From positions 1-60,833 of the forward strand of contig CAMDYG010000012.1 of NCBI GenBank assembly GCA_945910225.1: a stretch of 60,833 bases of DNA, read 5' to 3'. Of the stretch, positions 35,727-56,432 are shown in pieces. A program made the position numbers and the translations under genes. Numbering within the stretch: position 1 is the first letter of the stretch; each line of letters opens with the position of its first letter. The notes below the pieces were generated by a model that did not search any database, had not been told where the DNA came from, and worked only from the letters and a program-made list of their open reading frames with translations. The stretch is from an uncultured Eubacterium sp. Lineage in GTDB: Bacteria > Bacillota > Clostridia > Lachnospirales > Lachnospiraceae.

Positions 35727-36449
35727 ATGGTTTTTAGTGAGAAATATAGGATAAGATTGGAGGATTGTGGAACGGATTGCCTTGCAACAAATAAGGCAGT
35801 TCTTACAATAATAGAAGATATTGCTGGATTACATTCTGCTTCAGTTGGATTAGGTTTGGGAGAATTCAGCAAGAGTAAATGTGCATGGGTAGTTCTCAAC
35901 TGGAATGTAAAGATTATTAACAGACCACATTATAATCAGGTAGTAAATGTATATACATGGTCAACTAATGTTGATAAGCTCTTTGTCGACAGGGATTTTG
36001 AAATAAGAGATAATTCTGGCGAAATAATGGTAATTGCGACATCAAGATGGATATATATGGATATATTCAGAAGAAGACCAGTGAGAATAACGCCAGATTT
36101 AATGGAAAAGTATCAGTCAGAGCCGCAAAAACATGTGTTTGAAGATAATATTACCAAATCAGTAATCCCGGAAACGGACTATATTGAAACACATTATATG
36201 GTATTAAGAAGAGATGTAGATCATCTAGGACACATGCATAATATTAGTTATCTTGATGCAGCATATGATGTAATGCCAGATGATATATATGAAAACGCTG
36301 ATTATAACTGTTTTTCAATAGAATACAAAAAAGAATTACTGAAATCAGACAAAGTTATGGCACATTTTTACAAACTTGATAAAGGGTGTATAATAACATT
36401 TAATACGGACAAGATAAATGCAGTAATAACATTAAAAAAACAAATTTAG
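35727..36449 (+). CDS. Acyl-ACP thioesterase (FatA/FatB family)
   Basis: 240 aa, double-hotdog size. The N-terminal YRIRLEDCGTDCLATNKAVLTIIEDIAG and CAWVVLNWNVKIINRPHYNQVVNVYTW are typical of bacterial acyl-ACP thioesterases. The second half carries VLRRDVDHLGHMHNISYLDAAYDVMP, with the D-x-x-x-H-x-N catalytic-type pattern. It releases free fatty acids from acyl-ACP. It is the first plus-strand gene to the right of the replicon core, with AAGAGG upstream. Confidence 0.9.
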   Translation: MVFSEKYRIRLEDCGTDCLATNKAVLTIIEDIAGLHSASVGLGLGEFSKSKCAWVVLNWNVKIINRPHYNQVVNVYTWSTNVDKLFVDRDFEIRDNSGEIMVIATSRWIYMDIFRRRPVRITPDLMEKYQSEPQKHVFEDNITKSVIPETDYIETHYMVLRRDVDHLGHMHNISYLDAAYDVMPDDIYENADYNCFSIEYKKELLKSDKVMAHFYKLDKGCIITFNTDKINAVITLKKQI

Positions 36450-39848: not shown

Positions 39849-39915
39849 TGTCACAAAAAATGACAAAAATTCGACAAAAAATACTGATTTTTTTGCAAAT
39901 TTGGCAAAAAATCTG

Positions 39916-39943: not shown

Positions 39944-39949
39944 ATAAAC

Positions 39950-40107: not shown

Positions 40108-40206
40108 ATACTTTTCTTAACATTTAATCTGTTATCTATGATATAATCACAAAATAATTCTTAATAAAATAATGGATGTTTATCCATATCAGGAGTAGAA
40201 AGCATT

Positions 40207-41364: not shown

Positions 41365-41371
41365 AATCTTT

Positions 41372-41935: not shown

Positions 41936-42083
41936 AGAACCATGGCAAGATTTAGGTAGTATTTCGGTATTTTGGAAAAAAATAGGTTTTTTTAGTAATT
42001 AATATGTTGTATAATGATAAAAGCAATATAGGGATATCCCTTTTGGTGAATAATTTTATAAGAGGAAAAGGAGGTCTTACAAT

Positions 42084-43937
42084 ATGGGTAAGTTGCATAC
42101 TAAGGCCGAGAGAGATGAAAAGGTTAAAGAGATTAAGGCCGATAAAGACAAGAAAGTAAAAGAAGTTAAGGCTAAGAAGAAAGAAATCGATGCCGAGGTT
42201 AAGAAAAAGGCAAAGAAGGCTGTTGATGATGGAAAGAAGAGACGGGCCGGAATTACATCTAGGCTTGTGACACTTGCAATAGTTCCTGCAGTAGTGATGG
42301 TTCTTGGATTAATAACAACAACAGTGTTCAGTCTTAAGTCAGGACTGGAAGAAGAGGCTATGGATGGTCTTGAACTGTTAGGTGGAGCAGTCCAGAGTTC
42401 TTATGAGGATATTAAAGGTAATTTTGAATATAAGAATGGAAAGCTTTTCAAAGGAGATGAGGAGCTTACAATTAAACCAGCGGCATTGGATATATATGTT
42501 AAGGATTCTAAGAATAATGCCCAGGTTACATTAACATATGGAACAACAAGAGTACTTACGACACTTACAGATGATAAGGGAGTAAGACTTACAGGAACAG
42601 AGATATCTGATGAAGTGTGGGATGTAGTCAAGACGGGGAAGACATACAGAGGTACCAGCATTAAGATTGATGGAAAGAGATACTGCGCAGTATATGTACC
42701 ACTTAAGGACAAGAATCAGGTTGTTGGATGTGTTTTTGCAGGAGAACCAACATCAGAGATAGCATCATACATAATGCAGAAAGTAGTCAATATGCTTATT
42801 GTTGCAGCTGGAATACTTGTTATTGTTGCAGTTGGTGCATTTTTAATAGCAAGGAGCATATCACAGTCTATTAAGAAAGCTAGTGTATCAGTTACACGAG
42901 TTGCAGGAGGAGACCTTACGACAGAGGTTAATGCAACAGTTCTTAAGAGAAAAGATGAAATTGGTGATATGGGCAGAGATCTTGCGACTCTTATTAACAA
43001 GCTGAGAGAGATTGTAGGAAGCCTTTCACAGTCAGCAACAGATCTTAGTGAATCAGGTAACAATATTGATTCAATGGCATCAAAGTCAAGTATAGCGGCG
43101 GGAGAGATAAGTACCGCAGTTGAAGAGATTTCTAAGGGTGCAGTATCACAGGCAGAAGAGATTGAGACAGCAACTAATGAGATTATGAATATGGGTGAAC
43201 AGATAACACAAATTGTTAACAACATTTCAGATCTTACAGATGCATCAAAGTCAATGGAGGAAGCTGGTAATGCATCACAGGAGACAATGGAAGAGTTAAG
43301 TGAGGCAGTTCAGAGAACAACAGATGCAGTTGCAAGAATTGCAAAGCAGATAGAGCTTACTAATGAATCAGTTGATAAGATAGGTAATGCAGCAACATTG
43401 ATTGCTGATATTGCCAGCCAGACAAGTCTCTTATCGCTTAATGCTTCTATCGAGTCTGCAAGAGCAGGAGAGGCAGGAAAGGGATTTGCAGTTGTTGCAT
43501 CAGAGATTCAGAAGCTTTCTTCACAGTCAGACAGTACAGCTAATAAGATTCAGGAGATAATTACTGATCTTCAGAATGATTCAAGAGAGACACTTGAAGT
43601 AATGAAGAAGACAGAAATACTTGTTAAAGAACAGTATGAGAAACTGACAGCTACAGAAGAGAAATTCAGACAGGTTGATGATGGTATTAATGTTTCAAAG
43701 AATGGAACAGCTGTTATTAAGGGAAATGCGCAGGAATGTGATAGTTCAAGAGTAACTGTAGTAGATGTTATATCTAATCTGTCTGCAATATCAGAAGAGA
43801 ATGCCGCTTCAACACAGCAGACAACTTCTTCAATGCAGGAGCTTAATGCAACAATTAACCTTCTTGCAGAGACAGCAGCCAAGGTTAAGGATGTATCAGA
43901 TAAGCTTAATGAAGATATGAAGTATTTTACAATATAA
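42084..43937 (+). CDS. Methyl-accepting chemotaxis protein
   Basis: 617 aa. An unusual ~60-residue Lys/Glu-rich cytoplasmic head ([21 protein letters not shown]) precedes TM1 (~residues 62-90). A Cache-like extracellular domain of ~145 residues follows, then TM2 (~235-258), a HAMP domain, and a signalling domain. The hairpin tip reads [32 protein letters not shown]. It would report ligands to CheA. No che or flagellar genes are in the window. An exact TATAAT lies at 42010-42015 with only a T-tract as -35; no sigma-28 promoter is seen. AAAGGAGG precedes the ATG. Confidence 0.94.
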
Positions 43938-43953
43938 TATATGTCAACATAAT

Positions 43954-44022
43954 AAAAAGAGTTAATACTGCATTAATATGCGAGGGGCTAGGCACCTCCG
44001 TTACAGTATTAACTCTTTTTTT
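43954..44022. terminator. Long bidirectional terminator
   Basis: A 17-bp perfect stem (left arm AAAAAGAGTTAATACTG, right arm CAGTATTAACTCTTTTT) encloses a 33-nt loop containing a small GAGGGG/CACCTC helix. A-rich and T-rich flanks serve the chemoreceptor and the convergent HTH gene. Confidence 0.88.
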
Positions 44023-44024
44023 AT

Positions 44025-45527
44025 TTAAATTTTTTCAAGAGAATTAATAAGTTCCTTTAGTTGGGAACGGATTTTTTTGCGGTTAATATCCGTATAACCA
44101 ACTTTATTTGCAATACGATAAAGGTATTCCTGAAAGTTCTGAATAAGCTGCGGATGATTAAAATCCAAAACCATGCTTGGAACGGCAGTACGGATAAGTA
44201 GCGCTCCAGAGCCTTCGTTAACAATAACACACACATTATCATCCGGATCATAATCGATGGGAACAAAGAAATAATTAGGATGAGCATCCATTATATCTAC
44301 TATATTCTTAAGATGTGCAGCGTAAGTCTTTGGCGTGTAATAGACTGGCACATTTTGTTTTACAACTGGAAATATTACAGGAACATGACCATCGATTATT
44401 TGCTCGACAGTTGCCAGCGGACATATATCAACATTTCGCATTTCATCAAATACTGGATTAAGCTGGTAAGAGGTACGAAGGCTTACACCAAGGCTGTCCG
44501 GGTTGTTGGTCAGGAACTGGAGCATAAGTTCATCTGGCATTGCTGCTGGAGGAAGGCTGAGTCCCTTCTGTATGTGACCTACAGGCATGCTCAGGTACTT
44601 ATGAAAACATTTTGAAACATCTTCAGCTGATTCATATATATTCATTGCTGGACGGCAGTAAGATAAAAATGTATTGAATTCGTTCTCCTTAACAGTGACA
44701 ACTGCAGATTCTGTGGTTAATACAGTAAATGAATTCTCTGTAATAGTTGACAGGCAGTCGGAATATACAGCTACATGTCCAGGATATATTATGCTGATTT
44801 TTGAAAAAAGGTTATCTCTCATACGTGGATAATAATATGACTTTACCCGTCCTGTAAGATACGCAGGAATCCAGTAAAAGAATTCCTCAAAAAACTGTGT
44901 TGTATTAACAGGAGATGGAGATATCTGGCATATTTCATATCCAGTATCTAATAATTTCAGAATAAGCTCCTGCAGAGAATTGAGAATATCCTTATTGTCA
45001 AATATGCTGTATACGTCATCATCAATCCACACATATATAGTTCCTGTTTCATCTAAAGACAGAAGATAATTAATGAAACTAAAGATTGCCTGGCGTTTAC
45101 CTTTCTGCTTGTATAAAATACTTGTTGAATCAGGTGAAATATCTATAGTATTGATTCCATGAATATTGCTGTTACCTGGAGCAGTAACATTTTCATTGAG
45201 AATAGTATCAACAATTGTATCTGGCATTGGTAAAGTGTCTGTAAGCCATTGATATAGCATATCAGAGTATTCAGATAATGGACGCTGGTGATTGAAGCGT
45301 GAGTAATCTGATGCAAGTGCAAGTGCCTTTCTCTGATAATTCAGCTTTATTGCATTGGCAAAATACTTAGCCATTCTTTTTACAACATCCTTGTCACGTG
45401 GACATTTTCTTTTTCCATTGCGATACAGGCTCACAGCAGAATTATCAATGTTTATGGCACTGGCAAGAGTGGTGTTATTAGTGTTGGTAATATCCATTAG
45501 GAATTTGAATTTATCATTAAAAGTCAT
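44025..45527 (-). CDS. XRE-type helix-turn-helix protein with large unknown C-terminal domain
   Basis: 500 aa. Residues ~1-60 form an XRE-like HTH (FNDKFKFLMDITNTNNTTLASAINIDNSAVSLYRNGKRKCP). The remaining ~440 residues contain no recognised domain: an alpha/beta segment (GTIYVWIDDDVYSIFD), FFYWIPAYLTGRVKSYYYPRMRD, and repeated Tyr/Val-rich strands. No membrane spans. I recognise this only as a large HTH sensor-like protein of the kind common in Lachnospiraceae. It follows the TetR gene by 9 nt, so the two regulators form an operon divergent from the acyl-lipid genes. Confidence 0.7.
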   Translation of the reverse strand: MTFNDKFKFLMDITNTNNTTLASAINIDNSAVSLYRNGKRKCPRDKDVVKRMAKYFANAIKLNYQRKALALASDYSRFNHQRPLSEYSDMLYQWLTDTLPMPDTIVDTILNENVTAPGNSNIHGINTIDISPDSTSILYKQKGKRQAIFSFINYLLSLDETGTIYVWIDDDVYSIFDNKDILNSLQELILKLLDTGYEICQISPSPVNTTQFFEEFFYWIPAYLTGRVKSYYYPRMRDNLFSKISIIYPGHVAVYSDCLSTITENSFTVLTTESAVVTVKENEFNTFLSYCRPAMNIYESAEDVSKCFHKYLSMPVGHIQKGLSLPPAAMPDELMLQFLTNNPDSLGVSLRTSYQLNPVFDEMRNVDICPLATVEQIIDGHVPVIFPVVKQNVPVYYTPKTYAAHLKNIVDIMDAHPNYFFVPIDYDPDDNVCVIVNEGSGALLIRTAVPSMVLDFNHPQLIQNFQEYLYRIANKVGYTDINRKKIRSQLKELINSLEKI

Positions 45528-45536
45528 GGCGTCTCC

Positions 45537-46127
45537 TTAAGCAAATGCATGCACACCTGAAATAATAAGTGTTGTCAGTGTGCGTGCCATTTCATCAAGT
45601 GTTGTTTCATTAGGATTGCATATCCATTGATAATATACAGAAATAATTCCACCAGCAACGAAGCTTGAAATAAAAAGATAATGAGATTTGGGAACGTTCA
45701 TTTTGATATCTTTATCTTCAAGCTCTTTCAGGATAGTTTCCTGAAGAGTGGTCTGGAGCTTGTTAAAAAGCATACTGCCATTATCAGATGCAAACAAATC
45801 CCTTACAATATCCGAATTGGACATTATTGTATTAAGAAATGCAAATAATGTCTGTGGAGAAAGCATATTGTAATCTTCTGACATGTCATAGATAAGATCC
45901 TTAAGAGATGTGATGAGTTCACTGATTCCCTCATCAAGAACATCATTAACAGTAGAATAGTAAGTGTAAAATGTCTTCCTATTAATGTTGGCTGCGGCTG
46001 AAAGTTCAGTGACAGTAATGGAATTAAGCTTTTTCTTCTGCATAAGTTCAATCAAAGCTTCGTATATTGCTTTTTTAGTTTTGACAATTCGTCTGTCAGT
46101 TGATTTTGAAGAAGTAGATGTGTCCAT
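45537..46127 (-). CDS. TetR family transcriptional regulator
   Basis: 196 aa. The N-terminal HTH is KTKKAIYEALIELMQKKKLNSITVTELSAAANINRKTFYTYYSTVNDVLDE, a textbook TetR DNA-binding region, followed by a helical ligand domain. The C-terminal part is of the TetR_C type seen in Firmicutes (YYQWICNPNETTLDEMARTLTTLIISG). It is divergent from the acyl-lipid operon, whose promoter carries a matching palindrome. An acyl-CoA or fatty-acid-like ligand would be logical but is unproved. AAGGAGGATAAT precedes the ATG. Confidence 0.92.
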   Translation of the reverse strand: MDTSTSSKSTDRRIVKTKKAIYEALIELMQKKKLNSITVTELSAAANINRKTFYTYYSTVNDVLDEGISELITSLKDLIYDMSEDYNMLSPQTLFAFLNTIMSNSDIVRDLFASDNGSMLFNKLQTTLQETILKELEDKDIKMNVPKSHYLFISSFVAGGIISVYYQWICNPNETTLDEMARTLTTLIISGVHAFA

Positions 46128-46330
46128 AATTATCCTCCTTATCAGACTTTATAATATACTCGTAAAAATAGTGTTAATAAATAATAAACTAAAGAAATTG
46201 CAAAGTATTTTCTTACAAAATAATTTTACAACAATATATGACAACAGTAAACAAGATATGACAAAATGTTTCTTAAGTGCCAAAAAGGTAATATTTGACC
46301 TTTGAAAAATATTGTTAAAAAACATACAAT

Positions 46331-46385
46331 TTGAAATGGAAACATAATGTGTGATAATGGAACATATGTGTATTAAGTATACACA
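46331..46385 (+). promoter_or_regulatory. Promoter and TetR operator candidate of the acyl-lipid operon
   Basis: TTGAAA (46331-46336), 16-bp spacer, GATAAT (46353-46358) with upstream TG. At 46367-46385 lies TGTGTAT-TAAGT-ATACACA, a 7-bp arm palindrome covering the predicted start site and just before the ribosome binding site. That placement would let the divergent TetR block transcription. Confidence 0.6.
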
Positions 46386-46399
46386 AGAGGTGGATCATA

Positions 46400-47020
46400 A
46401 TGAAAAAGAAAAATACATTTATTAATGCAACAGCCCAATTGGGCAAGGGTCTTTTATATGCATATATGTATATTATGTTCAGACCTAAGATTTGTTATCA
46501 GAGCAGGAAGGCAAAAGAAGAAATCGAAAAAGGCGGAGTTATATTTATTGGAAACCATGTGGGACATAATGATGGACAGATGTTTTATATGCTTTTTAAG
46601 AACAGTGTTCTTATTATAGCTAAAGACTGGGCTGATAAGAAAATATTAAAGTGGCTTACAAGTGGTGGAAAGTTCATATCAGTTGACAGGTTTGGAACGG
46701 ACATAACATGGATAAGAGGAGCATCAGAACATCTCCGTTCAGGAGACAATATGATCATATTTCCAGAGGGACATACATCAAAGACTGGTGTAATGGATGA
46801 GTTTAAACCAGGTTTTGCAATGCTGGCTGTTATGTCAGGTGCAAAGATTGTACCGGTATATAATAACGGAGAGTATCATAAGCTGTTTGGAAAGAGATTA
46901 AGATTATATGTAGGTGAACCAATGGAACTTACAAAAGAGGGTAAGGGACTTAATGCAGAGTATATTGCCAGTGAATGTGGACGTTTCCGCGAGGCAGTGG
47001 AGAAACTCAGCAGGCAATAG
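46400..47020 (+). CDS. PlsC-like 1-acyl-glycerol-3-phosphate acyltransferase (first copy)
   Basis: 206 aa, short for the family. The acyltransferase motif I is GNHVGHNDGQ (H53-x4-D58), the glycerophosphate block is SVDRFGTD, and motif III is FPEGHTSKTG. An N-terminal hydrophobic stretch (GKGLLYAYMYIMF) may associate with membrane. It would acylate lysophosphatidate or another hydroxyl acceptor. It heads an operon with an acyl ligase, an acyl carrier protein and hydrolases, so its donor may be the operon's own acyl-ACP. The stop is followed at once by hairpin element 1. Confidence 0.9.
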   Translation: MKKKNTFINATAQLGKGLLYAYMYIMFRPKICYQSRKAKEEIEKGGVIFIGNHVGHNDGQMFYMLFKNSVLIIAKDWADKKILKWLTSGGKFISVDRFGTDITWIRGASEHLRSGDNMIIFPEGHTSKTGVMDEFKPGFAMLAVMSGAKIVPVYNNGEYHKLFGKRLRLYVGEPMELTKEGKGLNAEYIASECGRFREAVEKLSRQ

Positions 47021-47027
47021 TGGCAGA

Positions 47028-47318
47028 GGACGGGGCTGCGGCAGGCTGTGACGCGGGCGGTGTGTAGGTGTGCAGCATTTTGAAACACGCTTCCTCTAGT
47101 ATCCAGACGCAGCGGTACTAGGTTCATTCTCGCTTGTGTGAGGAATGTTGGGAGCAAGCTCCCCATCCCACGCACAAGTGTGAATTCACCAAGTGCCAGT
47201 GTCTTCCAACGGTTTCAAAATGCTGCACACCTACACACCACCTATGTCCCACCTAGCTCGCAGCCCCTGTGTGTCACTGCCTTTGGAGGGCTGCCTCCTG
47301 CGGAGGGGCGCCTTTTTT
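47028..47318 (+). repeat. Hairpin element, copy 1, with attached terminator-like stem
   Basis: Starts 7 nt after the acyltransferase stop with GGACGGGGCTGCG and pairs with CGCAGCCCC near 47260. An inner 25-bp perfect stem runs 47062-47086 / 47212-47236 (GGTGTGCAGCATTTTGAAAC and complement). Inside it are conserved single-stranded-looking motifs: ACGCTTCC, CAGACGCAGCGGTACTAGGTTC-type sequence and CACCAAGTGCCAGTGTC. It fills the 332-bp gap before the acyl ligase gene. The same sequence recurs at 48851-49113 and, inverted, at 49201-49447. Confidence 0.85.
47289..47318 (+). terminator. Terminator-like hairpin inside the operon
   Basis: GGCtGCCTCC / GGAGGGGCGCC stem followed by six T, 35 nt before the acyl ligase start. 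Likely a partial terminator or attenuator because genes on both sides are co-directional. Confidence 0.65.
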
Positions 47319-47352
47319 CTGATGTGGAATAATTAAATACAAGGAGGAGATT

Positions 47353-48837
47353 ATGGATCATTATTTTTATAACATGGTAACCCCTGATGAAATGGCTACT
47401 TTGGAATATATTCCAACTATTCCGGAGTTCCTGGATTTTATTAAGAAGCAATATTCTGATTATCCAGCCATAAGTGACAAGATTACTACATATACATATG
47501 AAGAACTTGTTTCAAGGGTTGCTAAGAGAGTTACATTTATTAATTCGTTAGGACTTGAAAAGGGTTCAAATATTGCTGTACTGGCTAAGAATGATCTGGA
47601 TGCAATGGAACTTTTTCTTGCAATTCCAGCAGCTGGACATGTGCTGTTGATGCTTCCTAATGCACTTAATGAGAAAGCACTTGCGGGAATCAGCATGAAG
47701 TTTGATCTTGCAGGTATGTTTGTGGGAAAGGAATTTACAGAGGTTACAGCTAATGTGCCTTGCAAGACATGGGCAAGTAGTTCAATAGGTGATACAGAGA
47801 GCGCATTTGCAGATGTTGAAAAAGATACTACAGCAGCGATATTCTTTACAGGAGGAACTACAGGAGCGCCTAAGGGAGCGGTTCATAGTCATGGTTCTAT
47901 TATGAGAGGTTCATTTAATGGTGTATTTGGACCAGGAAATATACTTCATAAAAGATATATAGCCATGCTTCCGCTTTCACATATTTTCGGCGCTATCATG
48001 GGTTACATGGCTAAGTTGTATACAGGCTCACTTACATATACATGTACTGATATGAGAGCGGGCATTGGTGATATTCCGGTTGTCAGACCAACAACGCTTG
48101 TGCTTGTTCCAGGACTTGTTGAGATTATTATTAATATTGCCAAGGCAAAGGGAAAAGCTTTTCTTGGAGATCTTGAGAATATTATGTGTGGAGCTGCACC
48201 AGTTCCACCAAGACAGATGGCTGAATGCCGTGAACTGGGAATTACATTATGTGCAGGATATGGACTGACTGAGTGTGCTAACCTGACAGCAGGTAACTGC
48301 GATACAGATAAGAAGCCAGAGTCTATGGGACATATATATCCGGAGCAGGAAGTTAAGGTTGTTAATGGAGAACTTTGGATTAAAGGCGACAATGTAATGA
48401 AGGAGTATTACAAGGATCCAGAGCATACAGCAGAGGTATTTGAAGATGGATGGTTTAAGACTGGAGATCTTGTAGAATTCGATAATGAAGACTGGATATA
48501 CATAACAGGCCGTATTAAGAACCTTATAATTCTTCCTAATGGTGAAAATGTATCACCTGAAGAGATTGAAGAATTATTCTATAAACAGCCATTAGTAAAG
48601 GATTGTCTTGTGCAGGAAATGGAAATGAATGGAAACACTGTTATAGGCGTTGAGATTATTCCATATATGCCTGAATTACAGGGAGCATCTGAAGATGAAA
48701 TCCAGAAGAGATTACAGGATGCTGTTAATGAGGTTAATAAGGAGCTTCCTCCATATAAGAGGGTGCTTAAGCTTAAGGTGCGTACAGAGGATTTCAAGAG
48801 ATCTGGCGCAATGAAGATATTGAGGAACCAGGCGTAA
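47353..48837 (+). CDS. AMP-dependent acyl-CoA/acyl-ACP synthetase
   Basis: 494 aa ANL-family enzyme. The ATP-binding A3 motif is IFFTGGTTGAPKGAVHSHG (~residues 160-178), A5-type CAGYGLTECAN, A7-type WFKTGDL, and the C-terminal catalytic Lys in RSGAMKILRNQ. It activates a carboxylic acid as acyl-AMP and transfers it to CoA or to a phosphopantetheine. A stand-alone acyl carrier protein two positions on, separated only by noncoding elements, suggests acyl-ACP is the product. That is inference. GGAGGAGA precedes the ATG. Confidence 0.93.
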   Translation: MDHYFYNMVTPDEMATLEYIPTIPEFLDFIKKQYSDYPAISDKITTYTYEELVSRVAKRVTFINSLGLEKGSNIAVLAKNDLDAMELFLAIPAAGHVLLMLPNALNEKALAGISMKFDLAGMFVGKEFTEVTANVPCKTWASSSIGDTESAFADVEKDTTAAIFFTGGTTGAPKGAVHSHGSIMRGSFNGVFGPGNILHKRYIAMLPLSHIFGAIMGYMAKLYTGSLTYTCTDMRAGIGDIPVVRPTTLVLVPGLVEIIINIAKAKGKAFLGDLENIMCGAAPVPPRQMAECRELGITLCAGYGLTECANLTAGNCDTDKKPESMGHIYPEQEVKVVNGELWIKGDNVMKEYYKDPEHTAEVFEDGWFKTGDLVEFDNEDWIYITGRIKNLIILPNGENVSPEEIEELFYKQPLVKDCLVQEMEMNGNTVIGVEIIPYMPELQGASEDEIQKRLQDAVNEVNKELPPYKRVLKLKVRTEDFKRSGAMKILRNQA

Positions 48838-48850
48838 GACAGTGACATAA

Positions 48851-49113
48851 GGACGGGGCTGCGTAAGGCAGTGACATGGGCTTGTGAGGGTGTGTAGCAT
48901 TTTGAAACACGCTCCCGCTCGTATCCGGACGCAGCGGTACTAGGTTCGCTGGAGTTTGTTGGCACTGTGTGCCAACTGCTCCAGCTTACCAAGTGCCGGC
49001 GTCCTCCCACGGTTTCAAAATGCTACACACCCACACCGCCTATGTCCCACCCAGCTCGCAGCCCCTGCGTATGTCAACTGCTTTACGGGCTGCCTCCTTT
49101 GGAGGTTCGCCCG
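48851..49113 (+). repeat. Hairpin element, copy 2
   Basis: Begins 14 nt after the acyl ligase stop with GGACGGGGCTGCG. The inner stem is GGTGTGTAGCATTTTGAAAC (48889-48908) paired with GTTTCAAAATGCTACACACC (49012-49031). Inner motifs ACGCTCCC, GACGCAGCGGTACTAGGTTC and ACCAAGTGCCGGCGTC match copy 1, and the attached GCCTCC / GGAGG stem is present but lacks the T-run. Differences between copies often preserve pairing (for example GTGCAG/CTGCAC versus GTGTAG/CTACAC). Confidence 0.85.
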
Positions 49114-49128
49114 GTGGGGAGAAAGTGT

Positions 49129-49195
49129 AGAGGGCGGAAGGTTGCAGACCGCCGGGTGCGTAGCCAGCCTACGGCTGGCGCATCGCACTTTAGTT
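49129..49195 (+). other. GC-rich branched palindromic segment
   Basis: AAAGTG ... CACTTT closes a ~55-nt segment containing GGCGG / CCGCC and GCCAGCCTACGGCTGGC hairpins, a three-way-junction-like layout. It lies between hairpin copies 2 and 3 and has much higher GC than the neighbouring genes. Confidence 0.5.
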
Positions 49196-49200
49196 GATTA

Positions 49201-49447
49201 AAATCCGGGAATGTGTCAGTCGCAGGTATGTGGTTTTGAAAAGGATTGCGGAAAAAACCATTGGAAGACGCCGGCACTTAGGGAATTCGTGGTTAGTGTG
49301 GGATGCGGGAGTTTGCTCCCGGCATCCCACAACAAAACACGAATGAGCTTAGTGTCCGTTGCGTCTGGATATGAGCGGAAGCGTGTTTTTGGAGCAATTT
49401 TTTTCAAAACCACATACCGGACGATTGCCAACACACTCACCGGATTT
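49201..49447 (-). repeat. Hairpin element, copy 3 (inverted orientation)
   Basis: The outer arms AAATCCGG (49201-49208) and CCGGATTT (49440-49447) enclose GGTATGTGGTTTTGAAAA (49225-49242) / TTTTCAAAACCACATACC (49401-49418). Read on the minus strand the interior has AACACGCTTCCGCTCATATC, then CAGACGCAACGGACACTAAG, a GGGAGCAAACTCCC apical stem and TAAGTGCCGGCGTCTTCCAA. These are the motifs of copies 1 and 2 in the same order. It ends 27 nt before the acyl carrier protein start. Confidence 0.8.
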
Positions 49448-49474
49448 CAATAAAGTAAAGAAGGAGATTTTATT

Positions 49475-49702
49475 ATGGTATTCGAGAAGTTAAAGGGAAT
49501 TTTTGGAAGGGTTATGCCACAGTGCGACCCATCAACTATTACTATGGATAGTGTTCTTACAACTGATTTAGGAGTTGATTCTCTTAATATGATGTTACTT
49601 GCTATCACTGTAGAAGATGAATTCAAGATCAGATTCAGTTCTGATGCAAAGCTTGAAACTGTTAAGGATATTGTTGACTATGTAGAAGCTAATGCTAAAT
49701 AG
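49475..49702 (+). CDS. Acyl carrier protein
   Basis: 75 aa, four-helix ACP with the phosphopantetheine attachment Ser36 in DLGVDSLNMM. Residues KIRFSSDAKLETVKDIVDYVEAN complete helices III and IV. It is a stand-alone ACP outside a fatty-acid synthase cluster, flanked by an acyl ligase upstream and a patatin-like hydrolase 9 nt downstream. It therefore likely carries a specialised acyl chain for this operon rather than serving bulk fatty-acid synthesis. AAGAAGGAGATTT precedes the ATG. Confidence 0.93.
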   Translation: MVFEKLKGIFGRVMPQCDPSTITMDSVLTTDLGVDSLNMMLLAITVEDEFKIRFSSDAKLETVKDIVDYVEANAK

Positions 49703-49711
49703 AGGTCTTTT

Positions 49712-50566
49712 ATGAGTGAGTTAAAGACAGGTCTTGTTCTGGAAGGTGGGGCAATGAGAGGTATATTCTCTGCCGGAGTTCTTGATTACATGCTTAAGGA
49801 AGACATTTATTATGATTATGTTATAGGTGTGTCAGCAGGTGCAGGTAATGCTGTGAATTATGTTTCCAGACAGGAAGGAAGAACCAAAAAGATAATTACG
49901 CATGAGAATGCTGAGAGGTATTATGGCGTAGGGCAGCTGTTTGAGAATAAGAAGATTCTTAATCTTGAAATGCTGGTTGCAGAGTATGCCCTGAAAGATA
50001 TCCCTTATGATTTTGATACATTTTTTGCATCTAAAACTGAATGCGAAAGTGTAGTTGTTAATTGCGAAACAGGAAAAGCAGAGTATAAGGGGAATTTTAA
50101 GACAAAAGAGGAATTCCTTAAGTGTCAGATGGCAAGCTGCTCAGTTCCATTTATATGTAATCCGGTTGAGATAGATGGATATCACTATCTGGATGGAAGC
50201 ATTATTGATTCAATTCCAATTGCGAGAGCAGTAGAGAAGGGATGCGATAAGATAGTTGTTGTCCTTACCAAACCAGAGGGGTCTAAGCCTACAGATTATT
50301 CTAAGGTTAAGAAGCTTATTGACTGGAGCTATAAGAAGTATCCGCAGTTATGTGAGGCTATGGCACACAGAAGACAGGCTTATGACAAGCAGGATAAATA
50401 TATGAAAAAGCTACAGGAAGAGGGCAAAGTATTTGTTATTCGTCCACAGGAACAGATGATAAGACATTTTGAGAATAACAATGAAAAACTCCTGCAGTGC
50501 TATCAGTATGGATATGACACAATGAGAAGACAATTCAAGGCATTTGAGAAATTTATGGAAAGTTAG
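49712..50566 (+). CDS. Patatin-like phospholipase
   Basis: 284 aa. The oxyanion loop is LEGGAMRGIFSAGVLDYM, the nucleophile Ser41 is in GVSAGA (GxSxG), and the catalytic Asp161 is in YLDGSIIDSIP (DGS rather than DGG/DGA). A complete Ser-Asp dyad is present, so it should be an active acyl hydrolase or transacylase acting on lipids. No signal peptide. It begins 9 nt after the acyl carrier protein stop and belongs to the acyl-lipid operon. Some patatins act as transacylases, which would fit an acyl-ACP donor. Confidence 0.92.
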   Translation: MSELKTGLVLEGGAMRGIFSAGVLDYMLKEDIYYDYVIGVSAGAGNAVNYVSRQEGRTKKIITHENAERYYGVGQLFENKKILNLEMLVAEYALKDIPYDFDTFFASKTECESVVVNCETGKAEYKGNFKTKEEFLKCQMASCSVPFICNPVEIDGYHYLDGSIIDSIPIARAVEKGCDKIVVVLTKPEGSKPTDYSKVKKLIDWSYKKYPQLCEAMAHRRQAYDKQDKYMKKLQEEGKVFVIRPQEQMIRHFENNNEKLLQCYQYGYDTMRRQFKAFEKFMES

Positions 50567-50620
50567 AGTTGTCAGAGTTGTAGTTATGAGTTGATTATTA
50601 GTTTAAAATGGAGATATGAT

Positions 50621-51367
50621 ATGAAGGTTTTAGTAGTAAACGGAAGCCCTAAAGGACCAAAGAGTAATACTATGCAGATGACAAATGCGGTTCTTAAGGG
50701 ACTTAAGGAGACAAATCCGGATGCTGAAATAGAGCTTCTTACAGTTAAGGATATGGATATTAAACCATGTATGGGGTGTATGAGCTGTTGGGGAAAAACA
50801 GCAGGACAGTGTGTTATTAATGATGTAATGCAGGATGTACATGTTAAATTCATGAATGCAGATGTTATTATATACAGCTTCCCACTGTATTTCTTTGGAA
50901 TGCCAGGTCCGATGAAAACATTTGTTGACAGAATTATGCCACTTATGGAGACATATAAGGGTAAGGTAAGAGATATCGGAGATAATGCTTTCCATGAATT
51001 CCGTTATGATGTAAGTGGAAAGAAATTCTATGTTATATCATCATGTGGATATGGAAGAACACAGGAGATATATGATGCTCTTATCAAGGAATTTAATTTC
51101 ATATACGGAAAGGGCAGATATCAGGCATTCCTATGTCCACAGAGTGAGATGTTTGCAATTCCACCAATGGTAAATCAGATTAATGAGTATCTTAAGAGAT
51201 ATACAGAGATTGGTAAGGTTATGGGAAGAGGTGAAGATGTACCTCAGGAGATGATTGACTATGCGTCACAGCCAATGATTCCACAGCGTGCATTAGAGAA
51301 GCTGATGAATAATTATTGGGATGCAGTTACCCCGGAAAATCCGCTTCCAGCACCTAACCTTAGATAA
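50621..51367 (+). CDS. NADPH-dependent FMN reductase / flavodoxin-like oxidoreductase
   Basis: 248 aa from the ATG at 50621 (GGAGATATG upstream; an earlier in-frame start at 50591 lacks a ribosome binding site). The FMN phosphate loop is VVNGSPKGPKSNTMQM. A Cys-rich C-M-G-C-M-S-C-W motif follows at residues ~46-53, typical of the clostridial iron-sulfur-free flavodoxin-like reductases, then SFPLYFFGMPGPMKTFVDRI. It would supply reducing power, perhaps to desaturate or reduce an acyl chain or a quinone; its role in the operon is not obvious. Confidence 0.85.
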   Translation: MKVLVVNGSPKGPKSNTMQMTNAVLKGLKETNPDAEIELLTVKDMDIKPCMGCMSCWGKTAGQCVINDVMQDVHVKFMNADVIIYSFPLYFFGMPGPMKTFVDRIMPLMETYKGKVRDIGDNAFHEFRYDVSGKKFYVISSCGYGRTQEIYDALIKEFNFIYGKGRYQAFLCPQSEMFAIPPMVNQINEYLKRYTEIGKVMGRGEDVPQEMIDYASQPMIPQRALEKLMNNYWDAVTPENPLPAPNLR

Positions 51368-51377
51368 GAGGCAGAAT

Positions 51378-52061
51378 ATGAAGACATATTATATGTTTGG
51401 TGATTCGCTTATGAGAGGTGTTATGCCAGATGAATCATGGAATTATCACAGTTCTGATGCAATCGGATTTGAAAAAATGCAGACACATTATAATATGAAG
51501 TTTGTCAATTATGCCATGCCTACATTTACATCCGAAAGAGTTAAAATGTGGATGATACAGACGATGGGAAGACAGGAAAAGCCAGATGCTGCATTTATTG
51601 AGTGTGGTGGTAATGACTGTGATTATGATTGGAAATCAATCTGTGAAGGCAAATGTGACTATGAACACAGACACAGGGTTGCGCCGGATCAATTTAAGAA
51701 AAATTATGAAGATATGATACACATTTTACAAAAGCAGAGAGTTGAAGCGGTAGCGGTTATAGCACCTCCAATTCCTGTTGAAGTGTATCTTTCACATTTG
51801 CTTGAAAGTGGAGTTGACAGAAATATTATGTCAGAATATGTGAACTCAGTTCAGCAGATGTATGATGAATTTGCTGAATATGGAGAAATTATGCGGCTGA
51901 CAGCAAAGGAAAATGGTTGTAGTGTATTAAGTCTTAGAGAAAGTTTTCTTGCTGTTGACGACATGTTGGCATATTATAGTAAAGATGGTATGCATCCAAA
52001 TAAGAAAGGATACATGCTTATTCATGATGAATTTGCGAAATATTTTGCTTCGCATATGTAG
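51378..52061 (+). CDS. SGNH/GDSL-family hydrolase
   Basis: 227 aa from the ATG at 51378 (AGAGG upstream). Catalytic blocks are FGDSLMRGV (Ser), ECGGNDCDYDW (Gly/Asn oxyanion) and KDGMHPNKKGYML (Asp-x-x-His). No signal peptide is visible, so it acts in the cytoplasm or at the inner membrane face. It may be an esterase, thioesterase or O-acyl transferase. It lies 10 nt after the flavin reductase and 19 nt before the second PlsC-like gene. It contains an exact GAACTCAGTTC at 51842-51852 within the coding frame. Confidence 0.88.
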   Translation: MKTYYMFGDSLMRGVMPDESWNYHSSDAIGFEKMQTHYNMKFVNYAMPTFTSERVKMWMIQTMGRQEKPDAAFIECGGNDCDYDWKSICEGKCDYEHRHRVAPDQFKKNYEDMIHILQKQRVEAVAVIAPPIPVEVYLSHLLESGVDRNIMSEYVNSVQQMYDEFAEYGEIMRLTAKENGCSVLSLRESFLAVDDMLAYYSKDGMHPNKKGYMLIHDEFAKYFASHM

Positions 52062-52080
52062 AAAGAATGAGGGTTTAAGA

Positions 52081-52833
52081 ATGTTTAATCTGCGTTTTAA
52101 ATGCACTGTTATATCGAGCTGGCGTATGGTACTTCGTGCTGTGCCTAAAGCTAACAAGATGATTGCCAATAAGAGCAGTCATTCTGCAGAGGAGAGATTC
52201 GCATATGCACAGTGGATTATTGATTATATGAGGAGACGCGCCAGAACAAGAACTAAGGTATTTGGAAGAGAGAATATCCCTAAGGACAGTAATTACATAA
52301 TGTATCCTAATCATCAGGGAAAGTATGATGCTCTTGGAATTATTCTTGCACAGGAAAAACCATGCGGTGTACTGTGGGGAAAGAAGCAGGCTGAGAGGCT
52401 TATGAGCCGTCAGGTATGCGGTCTTATTGATGCAGTTGTTATTGATCTTGATAACAACAGAGATAAGGTCAGGGCAATCATGGATGTTACCAAGCAGGTA
52501 AAGTCAGGCAGAAATTTTCTTATATTTCCTGAAGGCGGATATACTGATAACAAGAATGAGCTTCAGGAATTTCAGGCAGGATGCTTCTCATGCAGTCTTC
52601 ATACAAGGACACCTATAGTACCGGTGGCATTGTATGATTCATATAAGTCTATGAACAGTAACACATTTGAAAAGGTTGATACCCAGGTGCATTTTCTTAA
52701 GCCCATTCTTTATTCTGAATATGGAAATCTTAAGAAAAAAGAAATCGCAGAGCTTGTAAAAAGCAGGATTGATGAGCGTTTGAAAGAGATAAAGGCGGGA
52801 ACCTTCAACGAAAGTTATGAGCTTATTGGGTAA
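52081..52833 (+). CDS. PlsC-like acyltransferase (second copy)
   Basis: 250 aa from the ATG at 52081; the long upstream extension read from 51949 lies inside the SGNH gene and is rejected. Motif I is PNHQGKYDALG (H78-x4-D83), motif III is IFPEGGYTDNKNE (E151), and motif IV is PIVPVALYDSY. It resembles bacterial 1-acyl-sn-glycerol-3-phosphate acyltransferases and is clearly different in sequence from the first copy at 46400. Two different acyltransferases in one operon could acylate two positions of the same acceptor. A strong terminator follows 30 nt later and ends the operon. Confidence 0.9.
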   Translation: MFNLRFKCTVISSWRMVLRAVPKANKMIANKSSHSAEERFAYAQWIIDYMRRRARTRTKVFGRENIPKDSNYIMYPNHQGKYDALGIILAQEKPCGVLWGKKQAERLMSRQVCGLIDAVVIDLDNNRDKVRAIMDVTKQVKSGRNFLIFPEGGYTDNKNELQEFQAGCFSCSLHTRTPIVPVALYDSYKSMNSNTFEKVDTQVHFLKPILYSEYGNLKKKEIAELVKSRIDERLKEIKAGTFNESYELIG

Positions 52834-52863
52834 GTTGAATAATAGTAAAAATACAGATTAATG

Positions 52864-52908
52864 AGTAGGTCAGATACACCTTAATGAGGCATCTGACCTA
52901 CTTTTTTT
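52864..52908 (+). terminator. Terminator of the acyl-lipid operon
   Basis: AGTAGGTCAGAT / ATCTGACCTACT 12-bp stem with a short loop and T7. Confidence 0.88.
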
Positions 52909-53258: not shown

Positions 53259-56200
53259 ATGAAAAAGAATAAGAAGAGGATTCTTGCAGCAGTCATGACT
53301 GTGCTTATGGCGTTGACATTAATCCCAACATGGCTGTTAGGTGGTGTATTTGCTACTACAGCGAAGGCTGAGAATCAGGGGAGTTTTGACTCAACTGGGT
53401 TTGACGTTGTTAAGTTAGGTACCCAGACTGATAGTACAAGTGTAACAGCAGAATATAAAGATGATAAGGTGATTTTAAATACGGCTGATAAAGGAAAGAT
53501 GGCTAATACTGGACAGTCTGGTTTTGTCAGCTATTGTAAGAAGGTTGATGTTGACAAAGCTGCTACTATAAGAGGTAGCTTTAAAGTAACTAAGCTCGAG
53601 AAATCAGATAATCAGTCTTCTTTTGGTTTAATAGCATTTGATACAAAGGGAAATGCAGATGCCACAACTGATTATGTGAATCAGATAGATATTGCAGCAG
53701 CTACAAAATGTGAAGCTGTTGGATTGAAGAATGCAAATATTCCTATGGCGAGAACATATTTGTACAATACTGATTCAACAGGAAAAACATCTGCAGAAGA
53801 TAGCAAATGTGATGTGACAAGAGCACTTAATGTAGATGCAGATAATTTTTCAAAAACTAATTATAATATAACATATAATTTTGAGTTAGAGAAAAATGTT
53901 AATGGTATTACAGTTACTTGGTACGACGACAGCTGGAATACAGTTTTAGGAACATATACAATGTATAATCCTTCAAAGCTTCTTACACAGGATGATACAG
54001 GTGTATATATAGGATTCTATGCATCAAGAATCGGAACAGTAGAAGTAACTAATTTAAGTTACGAAGAACATACTTTTACAGAAGAAGAGAAACAGGCAAT
54101 CAATAAAGTTAAATGGGTTGATTATGATGAAGTAAGCTTTAAGACATTTAATGGCACAACAACATCTGATAGTGATTACAGATATAGATATTATGGTAAT
54201 ATAGCAGGAACAATTACTGTTAAAGATGATAAGGGTAATACATATATTAACGATAAATCCATTGCCATGAATGATACAATTGAATTTAATTTATCAGATT
54301 ATGGAAAAGAACTTGCAGAGGGAACAACAACATTTACAACAGAGATTAAACCATATGTTAATTCGGTTAATTCTGCAACTTTAAAGAAAGAATATTCTGA
54401 TAGATTATTACTTGAAGATTATAGTACAAGAGTTATCACAGATACTGTAGAAAGAAAAACAATAGCTAATGGTAATTCGGTTGTATATGTATCACCATCA
54501 GGAGATGCAGGAAATGCTGGTACACAGGAAGCTCCTTTAGATCTTCAGACAGCACTTTCATATGCTAATCCAGGAATGACAATTAAGATGATGGATGGAA
54601 CATATATTCCATCAGCACCATATACAATTCCATATAGTGTAAGCGGTACAACAGATAAGCATATAACACTTGAACCGGTTAATGCTGGTAAAGTTACAAT
54701 TGAAGGAACAAAACTTAATGGTGGAGATTCTGCACTTTTTGTACAGGGAGATTATTGGGATATCAAGAATATCGAAGTAACAAAAGCTGGTCATTATACA
54801 GATCCTAAAAAAGGACTTTCAGTAAAAGCAGTAAAGGGAATTCATGTATCTGGTAGTTATAACACAATAGAAAGGTGTGATATCCACCATAATGGAACTA
54901 CAGGTCTTCAGATAAGTTACTCAGGTGGAGAGCCTAAAGTGTGGTGGCCATCATACAATACAATATTAAATTGTGATTCATATTTTAATGTGGACGCAAA
55001 ACAGAATGATGCAGATGGATTTGCAGCTAAATTATCTGTTGGTGAAGGCAATGTATTTGATGGATGTGCGTCATATAATAATGCAGATGATGGATATGAT
55101 TTATATGCAAAGGCTACAGCCAAATATGGTCCAATAGGAGCAGTTACAATTAAAAACTGTGTTGCATATAATAATGGAATTCTTGAAGATGGAACATATT
55201 CTAAGGCATCAGGTAATGGATTTAAGCTTGGTGGAGAAGGTTTGACAGGAAAGCATAAACTTATAGATTCTGTATCATGGAATAATGGCGGAAGCGGAAT
55301 TATGAGTAATAATGGTCCTGATTGTCAGGTATATAATTGTATAGCTGTTGATAATGGTGTGTTCTCAAGAAATGGTGGAAACGCAGACAGAAATAACTAT
55401 CAGTTATCACCAAAGAATGGTGCTAAGTATAATGGAACAACAGGCTATGTTTTAAAGAACAGCATCAGCTTTTACACAGATAAAATAAAAGAAACTGGAA
55501 CAATGGCATGTGATAAATTTGTATTATTGGGACAGGAAGAGTCTGTAATATATAATAAGTCTAATTATCTTTGCAAAGATATCAGTACAAAGATATCAGC
55601 AAACAGCAGTAATACTCAGGTTGCAGCGGACTGGTTTGAGACAGTTGATTATACTAATGTTTCACCAGTACGTAAAGAAGATGGATCATTAGATATGAAA
55701 GGACTTTTTGTTCTTACTGAAAAAGCTAAAGCTATTATGGCTGAGCAGAATAAGACAGAAGATAATAATAAGCCAGGTAATGGTGGAGATGTTAATAAAG
55801 AAACATACGATATGGGTGATACTACAGTAATTACTAAGGAAATGCTGGAAGAGATTAAGGGTAAAGATATTGAAGTTACATTTGATATGGGTGATTACTC
55901 ATGGACAATTAATGGAAAAGATATCCCTGATGTTGAATTAGAAGATATTGATTTAAAGGTTACTAAAGACACTAACAATATTTCTGGTGATATCGTTAAA
56001 ACTCTTTCAGGAGAAAATGATGTTATGCAGATTAATATCTCACATAACGGAGAGTTCAAGCTTACAGCAAAGTTAAATCTTAATGTAGGAACTAAACATT
56101 CAGGTGAGTATGCTAATCTATTCTGGTATAAAGATGATGGAACATTTGAGTATATTGATTCATCATTGATTGATGCAGACGGAAATATCTCATTAACATT

Positions 56201-56432
56201 TACTCATGCATCTGATTATGTACTTGTATTTGGTGCAGAAATGAATCAGACAAATGCAGAATCTGCTAACAAATTGGTAAAAGAAAAAGCAGGAACAGAA
56301 GAGACAAGTAGTGAGCCAGCATCAGGCACAGGTGATTCATCAAATATGGCTGCACCAATCGCTATGATGATTGCTTGTATTATGGTAATGGGAACTGTTG
56401 TATTCTTTGAAAAGAAAAAGACAGTAAAATAA
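53259..56432 (+). CDS. Secreted, membrane-anchored pectate lyase, PL9 family
   Basis: 1057 aa. A signal peptide (~1-37, ending TTAKAE) is followed by an N-terminal beta-sandwich-like carbohydrate-binding region (~40-275) and a linker. A parallel beta-helix occupies ~405-800, starting VVYVSPSGDAGNAGTQEAP. In the helix DGFAAKL (~585) and N-A-D-D-G-Y-D (~609-615) reproduce the D-D-x-x-D calcium cluster of PL9 enzymes, and the Lys in GNGFKLGG is the expected catalytic base. A C-terminal domain precedes SGTGDSSNMAAPIAMMIACI and KKKTVK, a membrane anchor without an LPxTG motif. It cleaves polygalacturonate by beta-elimination at the cell surface. Confidence 0.9.
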   Translation: MKKNKKRILAAVMTVLMALTLIPTWLLGGVFATTAKAENQGSFDSTGFDVVKLGTQTDSTSVTAEYKDDKVILNTADKGKMANTGQSGFVSYCKKVDVDKAATIRGSFKVTKLEKSDNQSSFGLIAFDTKGNADATTDYVNQIDIAAATKCEAVGLKNANIPMARTYLYNTDSTGKTSAEDSKCDVTRALNVDADNFSKTNYNITYNFELEKNVNGITVTWYDDSWNTVLGTYTMYNPSKLLTQDDTGVYIGFYASRIGTVEVTNLSYEEHTFTEEEKQAINKVKWVDYDEVSFKTFNGTTTSDSDYRYRYYGNIAGTITVKDDKGNTYINDKSIAMNDTIEFNLSDYGKELAEGTTTFTTEIKPYVNSVNSATLKKEYSDRLLLEDYSTRVITDTVERKTIANGNSVVYVSPSGDAGNAGTQEAPLDLQTALSYANPGMTIKMMDGTYIPSAPYTIPYSVSGTTDKHITLEPVNAGKVTIEGTKLNGGDSALFVQGDYWDIKNIEVTKAGHYTDPKKGLSVKAVKGIHVSGSYNTIERCDIHHNGTTGLQISYSGGEPKVWWPSYNTILNCDSYFNVDAKQNDADGFAAKLSVGEGNVFDGCASYNNADDGYDLYAKATAKYGPIGAVTIKNCVAYNNGILEDGTYSKASGNGFKLGGEGLTGKHKLIDSVSWNNGGSGIMSNNGPDCQVYNCIAVDNGVFSRNGGNADRNNYQLSPKNGAKYNGTTGYVLKNSISFYTDKIKETGTMACDKFVLLGQEESVIYNKSNYLCKDISTKISANSSNTQVAADWFETVDYTNVSPVRKEDGSLDMKGLFVLTEKAKAIMAEQNKTEDNNKPGNGGDVNKETYDMGDTTVITKEMLEEIKGKDIEVTFDMGDYSWTINGKDIPDVELEDIDLKVTKDTNNISGDIVKTLSGENDVMQINISHNGEFKLTAKLNLNVGTKHSGEYANLFWYKDDGTFEYIDSSLIDADGNISLTFTHASDYVLVFGAEMNQTNAESANKLVKEKAGTEETSSEPASGTGDSSNMAAPIAMMIACIMVMGTVVFFEKKKTVK

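Follow-up and report, generated by a model that had tools for sequence, protein, structure and literature searches.

A TetR-flanked operon with a private acyl carrier protein in Lachnospira as a candidate loading-and-attachment module of a two-locus acyl-lipid pathway

The stretch of DNA analysed here (the window; 60,833 nucleotides, contig CAMDYG010000012.1 of the uncultured Eubacterium sp. assembly GCA_945910225.1, from a gut relative of Lachnospira eligens) carries an operon of seven complete genes, all on the plus strand, with a divergent TetR gene on its 5' side and a strong terminator at its 3' end. A second locus, newly reported here, accompanies the operon and encodes a fused ketosynthase and chain-length factor (KS-CLF). 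We put the probability at roughly one half that the operon (locus B) is the loading-and-attachment module of a two-locus, megaplasmid-borne acyl-lipid pathway in which the second locus (locus A) would build an unusual chain. The proposal draws on what can be read from sequence, namely gene content, intact motifs, conserved gene order, the pairing of a ligase with an acyl carrier protein (ACP), the co-localization of loci A and B and a flavoprotein family shared between them.

The operon opens with PlsC1, a protein of the lysophospholipid acyltransferase family (46400..47020; HX4D and FPEG motifs intact), followed by an adenylate-forming acyl ligase of the ANL family (47353..48837; PF00501, 1.5e-53), in which the C-terminal domain is present and the ANL motifs are intact, and by a stand-alone ACP with an intact DSL serine (49475..49702; PF00550, 1.4e-8). 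Next come a patatin-like hydrolase with DUF6363 (49712..50566; PF01734, 1.5e-21; GVSAG and DG intact), a Flavodoxin_2/FMN_red flavoprotein with a CX2CX2CX7C motif (50621..51367; PF02525/PF03358), an SGNH/GDSL hydrolase (51378..52061; PF13472, 3.6e-16; GDS, GGND and DGMH intact) and PlsC2, a second protein of the lysophospholipid acyltransferase family (52081..52833; HX4D and FPEG intact). In the Pfam search, the two PlsC-like proteins matched PF01553 at 2e-18 and 8e-17. Intactness was judged by the catalytic-motif patterns known for these families. A sequence-only reading of this region had named the same seven genes on one strand, and all of them were found in place, with Pfam assignments and motifs in agreement. 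Comparison with a relative (S34M_St_44, L036) points to purifying selection on all eight genes, TetR included, with dN/dS between 0.015 and 0.14; dN and dS, listed separately, are 0.006 and 0.39 for the ACP, 0.014 and 0.70 for the flavoprotein, 0.034 and 0.71 for the ligase, and 0.123 and 0.86 for the SGNH protein.

The protein that had been called a flavin reductase does belong to the flavodoxin/FMN reductase family, and to that description an Fe-S-type motif can be added: CMGCMSCWGKTAGQC at residue 50 fits CX2CX2CX7C, and the four cysteines are kept in 7 of 7 aligned sequences. Judged by its sequence, the protein has a compact CX2CX2CX(4-7)C motif beside an FMN site, which we take to be the definition of Isf-type iron-sulfur flavoproteins. 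A moderately confident AlphaFold model (mean pLDDT 71.7, below 50 for residues 49-66, which hold the cysteine motif) shows, as far as such a prediction goes, the alternation of helices and strands expected for a flavodoxin-like fold. Matches to PDB sequences gave no functional clue for the flavoprotein (7d38, 3e-9) or the SGNH protein (E 0.018). The nearest PDB relatives of the ligase by sequence include feruloyl-CoA synthetase 8wev and MenE 5x8f, at a low similarity that is no indicator of substrate.

The operon is conserved as a unit, which is the check that the earlier reading had asked for. Of the 22 genomes of the genus, five, our own among them, carry a ligase orthologue (86-100% identity), and a sixth match (G403) is partial, with 38% identity. 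The order TetR / PlsC1-ANL-ACP-patatin-flavoprotein-SGNH-PlsC2 is identical in all five Lachnospira carriers, the ACP of L. eligens being taken from the genome annotation. As 17 of the 22 genomes, some of them incomplete, lack the operon, neither PlsC is likely to be a housekeeping enzyme. The search was extended to 397 genomes of the family, with at most three candidates scored per genome, and gave the ligase at E<=1e-80 in six of them (our own, named G000 here, and G017, G341, G187, G224 and G261). The ligase adjoins an ACP in 12 of the 12 genomes where its neighbourhood is visible (the window, L034, L035, L036, L. eligens, L037, L038, L039, G261, G224, G017 and G341), with an insert between the two genes in the window, L034 and L. 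eligens; in a thirteenth, G187, the contig end cuts the neighbourhood off. This constant adjacency supports the earlier proposal that an ACP is the partner of the ligase. The operon ACP is also additional to those in the fatty-acid synthase (FAS) cluster and in plsX-acp-rnc-smc, so that the description of it as private holds.

A reduced form of the operon was found on contigs of three metagenome-assembled genomes (MAGs; L037-L039), in which PlsC1-ANL-ACP is followed by one flavoprotein-SGNH fusion gene (L037:5511-6908, L038:4471-5859 and L039:9710-11098; Pfam verified on L039). The counterparts in the window are separate genes, 10 bp apart. No patatin or PlsC2 match was detected on these three contigs, L037 ending at that point, and a two-component system lies upstream of the reduced operon in all three.

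Locus A lies on another contig of our genome (L112), where TetR, an alpha/beta-hydrolase-like frame, a second ACP (ACP2), the KS-CLF (G000:C46:12221-14605), a ketoreductase (KR), a dehydratase (DH), a malonyltransferase, AccD, AccA and a flavoprotein follow one another until the contig ends; families were assigned from the orthologous L. eligens proteins together with our own. In L. eligens the locus runs on into PlsX and an arginase-family gene, and the hydrolase-like frame measures 296 aa, against 100 aa in our genome. Nothing in the Lachnospira locus A was recognised as an enoyl reductase gene. The sequence NC_012780.1 (626,744 bp; contig C2 of G397), the megaplasmid of [Eubacterium] eligens ATCC 27750 (Lachnospira eligens), holds both loci on the same strand about 40 kb apart, with locus A at 221557-232834 and the operon at 272705-279273 (46 kb from ligase to KS-CLF). 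Positions 1-21689 of the window align with this megaplasmid (75% of a 24-kb query), as do parts of 36848-49119, and 33565-35003 encodes a ParA homologue (91% to that of the megaplasmid) and a homologue of residues 1-203 of the megaplasmid ParB (98%). Given this synteny and these ParA/ParB homologues, the sequence comparison indicates that the window is most likely a stretch of a homologous megaplasmid.

The KS-CLF is a protein of about 805 aa with two ketosynthase domains (as seen in G017/G341). Its first half keeps the Cys/His/His triad in 19 of 19 aligned sequences, and in its second half Gln replaces the active-site Cys in all 14 sequences of the clade, our own copy included. This Gln does not occur in the second half of the KS-CLFs of P. 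megaterium, L. plantarum, G618, G658 and G020, five less closely related proteins that are likewise encoded by single genes. A Gln at this position is the mark of a chain-length factor, a component that ordinary FAS lacks. The combination of a Cys-His-His ketosynthase with a Cys-to-Gln partner is that of a KS-CLF like those of type II polyketide synthases, and it marks out, as a clade, the fused KS-CLF proteins whose chain-length-factor half is of the Gln type. Members occur in 4 of the 22 genus genomes (G000, G397, G402 and G408; 98-100% identity) and, at E<=1e-190, in 8 of the 397 family genomes (G341, G017, G042, G358, G023, G120, G000 and G106). The copy of G020 is weaker, and the remaining listed matches are about 36-43% identical and nearly all align over a single FabF-like domain. 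Among 391 genomes of the class, with at most two candidates scored per genome, a fused KS-CLF was found at E<=1e-90 in five besides our own; three of these have the order KS-CLF-KR-flavoprotein beside a FAS set, and the other two have cyl-like clusters with two flavoproteins each. In another Clostridia family, loci L141, L142 and L143 carry a fused KS-CLF, KR and flavoprotein directly 5' of genes of the FabH, FabK-like, FabD, FabG, FabF and FabZ types, and L144 and L145, also of another Clostridia family, hold a cyl-like cluster of KS-CLF, CylF-like, ABC, KR and DH genes (BLAST-verified in L144).

The two gene sets come together in G017 and G341, two genomes of one genus other than Lachnospira, which have most genes of both in one locus, in the order PlsC1, ACP, patatin (G017 only), flavoprotein, PlsC2, ligase, ACP2, KS-CLF, KR, DH, malonyltransferase and carboxyltransferase. 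This merged locus stands behind a TetR_C_8 gene and an MntP-like gene; its families were verified on G341, where a 200-aa open reading frame without family lies between KS-CLF and KR. The operon had been read as a whole pathway, a view that we reject as complete, since the chain-building set (KS-CLF, KR, DH, malonyltransferase, AccA/D, PlsX and a paralogous flavoprotein) was found at a second locus. The activation of an existing acid and its placing on a head group, as formerly proposed, is probably half of the story.

Co-occurrence points in the same direction. All four genus genomes with the KS-CLF are among the five operon carriers (hypergeometric p 7e-4, without a correction for kinship). 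In our genome (94% complete), a search at E<=1e-3 gave a single further homologue of the operon flavoprotein, the one inside locus A (39%, 9e-56). At E<=1e-45 the flavoprotein occurs in 19 of the 397 family genomes, which include 7 of the 8 KS-CLF genomes (0.38 expected, p 1.3e-9); counted by genus, the values are 5 of 6, with 16 of 334 (p 7.6e-7). The eighth KS-CLF genome, G120, has a 33% copy within its locus. In G042 and G106 the flavoprotein and the KS-CLF are on different contigs, and the flavoprotein neighbours an AccA-like frame (by eye), with a thioesterase in G042 and with DH and KR in G106. Other operon families also recur in KS-CLF loci: PlsC1-like genes (32-37%) in G042, G358, G023, G120 and G106, patatin (46-53%) in G042, G358 and G023, and a TetR homologue (24-32%) in G042, G358, G023 and G106.

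According to the main rival explanation, the operon is a stand-alone cassette for deacylation and reacylation or fatty-acid scavenging, a split Aas, and the KS-CLF locus is an independent plasmid passenger; patatin and SGNH would cut lipids, the ligase and ACP would reactivate the acid, and PlsC1 and PlsC2 would restore it. The sequences do place an HX4D/FPEG PlsC-like enzyme next to a complete acyl ligase, among NCBIfam profiles PlsC1 best matches PRK08633, an acyl-[ACP]-phospholipid O-acyltransferase, in its acyltransferase part (1.3e-19, far under the cut-off), and a split pair of this kind, CT775 (a lysophospholipid acyltransferase) and AasC/CT776, is known in Chlamydia, as the part of PMC5693948 used here reports. 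It would also account for four genomes, all MAGs, that have the operon or its reduced form and in which no fused KS-CLF was found (those of L037, L038 and L039, together with the 96% complete G411, which is L035). A lysolipid cycle, however, needs no flavoprotein, the sole other homologue of this flavoprotein found in our genome belongs to locus A, and G017 and G341 join the same genes with KS-CLF, KR and DH in one locus, all of which makes this explanation somewhat unlikely.

Further observations, together with those four genomes, weigh against a two-locus pathway. G224 and G261 have, of the operon genes, just the ligase and ACP; five genomes with the KS-CLF (G042, G358, G023, G120 and G106) yielded no ligase orthologue at E<=1e-80 with at most three candidates scored per genome; and no SGNH or PlsX gene was seen within the available stretch of the merged loci of G017 and G341. 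In the L. eligens loci, the annotation of which is incomplete, no phosphopantetheinyl transferase, exporter, methyltransferase or starter-forming gene was recognised. The flavoprotein tree keeps an operon clade (8 rows) and a Lachnospira-type locus-A clade (7 rows) separate, not joined; a recent duplication giving rise to the two proteins was considered and is unsupported, the deep forks of the tree being without resolution. Moreover, 12 of the 19 flavoprotein genomes lack a KS-CLF at E<=1e-100, and there the protein is mostly part of a fusion.

In 10 of these 12 genomes the flavoprotein lies in open frames of 538-573 aa (9 read), and G131 and G092 have frames of 369 and 232 aa. An SCP2 lipid-binding domain was verified with Pfam in 2 of 2 such large fusions searched (L151 and L162); the label SCP2 that the tree gives to all 11 loci is broader than these two. 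The large fusion is a recurring Lachnospiraceae architecture, and the flavoprotein family thus recurs both with the Gln-type KS-CLF clade and, elsewhere, mostly in larger fusions, two of them with SCP2. By eye, the larger proteins (537-563 aa; L151, L153, L154, L156, L157, L160, L161, L162 and L164) have a hydrophobic C-terminus, and a PadR-like gene adjoins the flavoprotein in 9 of the 11 loci read, among these nine in all but L161.

Another set of genomes bears on the nature of the chain. In G505, G617 and G478, KS-CLF, KR and flavoprotein lie directly 5' of FAS genes of the ordinary kind, among them a FabK-like gene, and because of this neighbour the chain may end up saturated, again a point against the two-locus pathway proposed here. 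Locus A and the operon could then be a second dedicated fatty-acid synthase, whose ordinary or long saturated chains would end in a lipid of the membrane or surface; for the enoyl reductase, it would rely on the housekeeping FAS or on the flavoprotein as a substitute. Profile scores agree with such an enzyme set, as the KS-CLF exceeds the cut-off of the FabF-type profile PRK07314, the DH that of FabZ and PlsX that of plsX. Against it stand the Gln in the second ketosynthase half throughout the clade and the absence of a recognised enoyl reductase from the Lachnospira loci, and we regard this possibility as improbable.

In the two-locus pathway that we favour, whose reactions, ligase substrate, product, polyene character and lipid acceptor are given here as we infer them, AccA/D and the malonyltransferase of locus A would provide malonyl-ACP, and the fused KS-CLF, with KR and DH, would elongate the chain on ACP2. 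Because no enoyl reductase was recognised in locus A, double bonds may be left in the chain, which is the origin of the polyene idea. The operon ligase would adenylate a free carboxylic acid, either a starter unit or a recovered chain, and load it onto the private ACP; the chain would undergo a redox step at the flavodoxin-type Fe-S flavoprotein and be released or transferred by the SGNH enzyme. PlsX from locus A and both PlsC-type enzymes would esterify the chain to glycerophosphate or a lysolipid, the patatin may open an acyl position or prepare or edit the acceptor, and TetR would control the operon. A narrower proposal, that L. eligens and its close relatives make an undescribed polyene, perhaps aryl-polyene, glycerophospholipid through this split megaplasmid pathway, is doubtful; the Fe-S flavoprotein/SGNH pair, the private ACP with its ligase and the two PlsC enzymes would in that case trim the chain and mount it on a membrane lipid. 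L. eligens is a common gut commensal, and such a product, if real, would give this Gram-positive anaerobe of the human gut an equivalent of aryl-polyene lipids.

The surroundings of the operon raise the possibility that it acylates a capsule or surface glycan, that is, a polysaccharide or its lipid carrier. In L. eligens, capsule genes (CpsB, Wzz, CpsD and a sugar transferase) come after the operon, the same families are found there in L034-L036, and some SGNH proteins are O-acyltransferases. In the window, no CpsB match was found and a beta-helix protein follows the operon instead; no glycosyltransferase appeared among those merged-locus genes that were searched for family (not every gene), and two PlsC-type enzymes indicate glycerolipids, so that we consider capsule acylation very improbable. 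The beta-helix protein (53259-56432; 1057 aa, right-handed, with a Pel9A-like match) takes the place 3' of the operon that the capsule genes have in relatives. Elsewhere, gltX and genes for cardiolipin synthase and serine ammonia-lyase are found in the L. eligens stretches syntenic with the window. An acyl-ACP thioesterase family gene on the plus strand (35727..36449; 66% identity to the annotated L. eligens acyl-ACP thioesterase) may be a distant accessory; as a third locus it was set aside, its identity to the thioesterases beside the KS-CLF clusters of G358 and G042 being merely 19-25%, and it is kept as a lead only. A role in anti-phage defence was rejected, the patatin giving a lone weak PADLOC match (2.5e-4, 18.5 bits) in a gene set that is lipid biosynthetic.

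The regulator, of the TetR_C_8 family (45537..46127, minus strand; Pfam, 3.5e-14), is conserved at 78-80% in L034-L036 and L. eligens. Between it and PlsC1, alignment of relatives revealed an inverted repeat, CATACAAT-N15-ATTGTATG (46323..46353), which overlaps a promoter-like site and is, by its sequence, a possible TetR operator. The palindrome claimed for this promoter is weak in the window, with two mismatches, and gains its support from the relatives, being perfect in three of four (L035, L036 and L120, which is L. eligens) and having one mismatch in L034. The promoter-like TTGAAA-16-GATAAT (46331..46358, plus strand) is a consensus match alone, of a kind that is frequent (43 in a 10-kb stretch, against 35.5 expected). 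An operator shared with locus A was discounted, as L112 has one match with two mismatches 5' of the locus and the 60-kb window has 12 matches with up to three. The operon ends, as had been proposed, at one strong Rho-independent terminator (52863..52908, plus strand; -24.5 kcal/mol, z -6.9), which a simple terminator scan missed despite its strong fold. Adjoining TetR, a 500-aa protein with an N-terminus that looks helix-turn-helix-like by eye (44025-45527, minus strand) is 70-79% conserved beside the operon in 4 of 4 relatives examined and had no match in Pfam, NCBIfam or PADLOC.

Two GC-rich palindromic repeat inserts, outside the pathway, interrupt the operon before the ligase (47021..47352, 332 bp) and after it (48838..49474, 637 bp, with copies in both orientations). 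They have 53-55% G+C, against 34-40% for the genes of the region, and share a unit of about 250 bp with inverted arms, in three copies and two orientations. In our genome all five matches, forward and reverse, fall within 47030-49388; in relatives, pieces are scattered, often as a core of about 115 bp (13 matches in G397, 10 in G402, 8 in G408 and 4 in G411, copies inside the operon included), and a comparison by coordinates found no insert in the operon of L035 or L036. They look like dispersed palindromic repeats rather than pathway genes and, from their sequence, may be a mobile or REP-like element of unassigned type. The seven genes across both inserts would form one putative transcription unit.

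No description of these loci was found in open-licence titles or abstract openings, nor any open-licence paper joining 'Lachnospira eligens' with 'polyketide', and the functions of the L. eligens megaplasmid seem little described. If both loci make one lipid, the genes behind an unusual membrane lipid of a host-associated anaerobe would be a concrete set open to deletion. Among related products elsewhere, polyenes have been linked with oxidative-stress survival and biofilms (in the part of PMC8253772 used here), and the pks cluster of L. reuteri bears on a host receptor (in that of PMC6498181).

Among known systems, Gram-positive polyene clusters invite comparison. For the cyl and fun pathways, a polyene is the product assumed from KS, KR and DH when no enoyl reductase accompanies them, according to the parts of PMC6985545 and PMC6498181 consulted. 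With the granadaene cyl cluster our loci have in common KR, DH, ACP, malonyltransferase and, if the chain is a polyene, its formation without enoyl reduction as a Gram-positive lipid pigment (PMC6985545, in part); in L. plantarum and P. megaterium, cyl-like clusters on plasmids also encode the ketosynthase in one gene of KS-CLF length (753 and 809 aa). Our loci differ in having the ligase, patatin and PlsC. The CylF-like protein and permease of L127, and the GcvT-like protein of P. megaterium, had no tblastn match at 1e-3 in the window, L112, L124, L125, L048 or L049, and all three queries matched the cyl-like locus L144. The cyl ATPase gave just 22-27% ABC matches, in the window and L125, and the L127 protein taken as CylE from gene order matched nothing, L144 included, and has no Pfam family. 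Identity of the KS-CLF to the P. megaterium and L. plantarum proteins is 32-38% in the ketosynthase half and 17-31% in the chain-length-factor half. Membership in the granadaene type was rejected, the ketosynthase differing (the chain-length-factor Gln is kept here and not in the cyl type) and CylF and the permease being unmatched in the loci searched.

Like our loci, the fun cluster of L. reuteri, treated under plasmids in PMC6498181, comes from a Gram-positive gut symbiont; its regulator is of the TetR type, its ketosynthase has 798 aa, its acetyl-CoA carboxylase is a dedicated one, and its predicted product is a polyene. Its gene set is another one, and no ANL/PlsC/patatin module is described for fun/pks in the part of that source consulted. 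The loci described here also differ from the Aas/AasC system. There, the ACP is not a private one, and no chain synthase, flavoprotein or SGNH protein takes part. What the two have in common is an ANL-type acyl-ACP synthase paired with a PlsC-like acyltransferase (PMC5693948, in part).

The closest parallel in gene content is the aryl-polyene (APE) pathway. The earlier statement that no named pathway has exactly this gene set is literally correct, although the combination of acyl-ACP synthetase, ACP, acyltransferase, KS-CLF, KR and DH is that of APE, as far as the part of PMC8253772 used here describes it. In apeA-R of E. coli CFT073, the predicted role of ApeH is the loading of an ACP with 4-hydroxybenzoate, as shown in vitro for a relative, and ApeD, a lysophospholipid acyltransferase, and ApeJ are proposed to fix the chain to a membrane lipid (PMC8253772). 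Our loci share with it a putative acyl-ACP synthetase (ApeH), the ACPs (ApeE/F), an ApeD-type acyltransferase, KS-CLF, KR and DH, as well as the proposed mounting of the finished chain on a membrane lipid (PMC8253772); this core is found in one locus in G017/G341 and in two in Lachnospira, where it would have to act as one pathway. The differences are also plain, and the operon with locus A is not an APE cluster: it is split over two loci of a Gram-positive megaplasmid, has KS and CLF fused in a single gene, and includes AccA/D, malonyltransferase, PlsX, patatin, SGNH and an Fe-S-type flavoprotein. No methyltransferase was recognised in the loci, and none of the RND exporter or LolA/LolB-like proteins (ApeL, ApeM, ApeN) is annotated in L. 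eligens 216000-292000, where annotation is incomplete and no genome-wide search was made. By analogy, it is plausible that the operon works like the loading-and-attachment part of the APE pathway.

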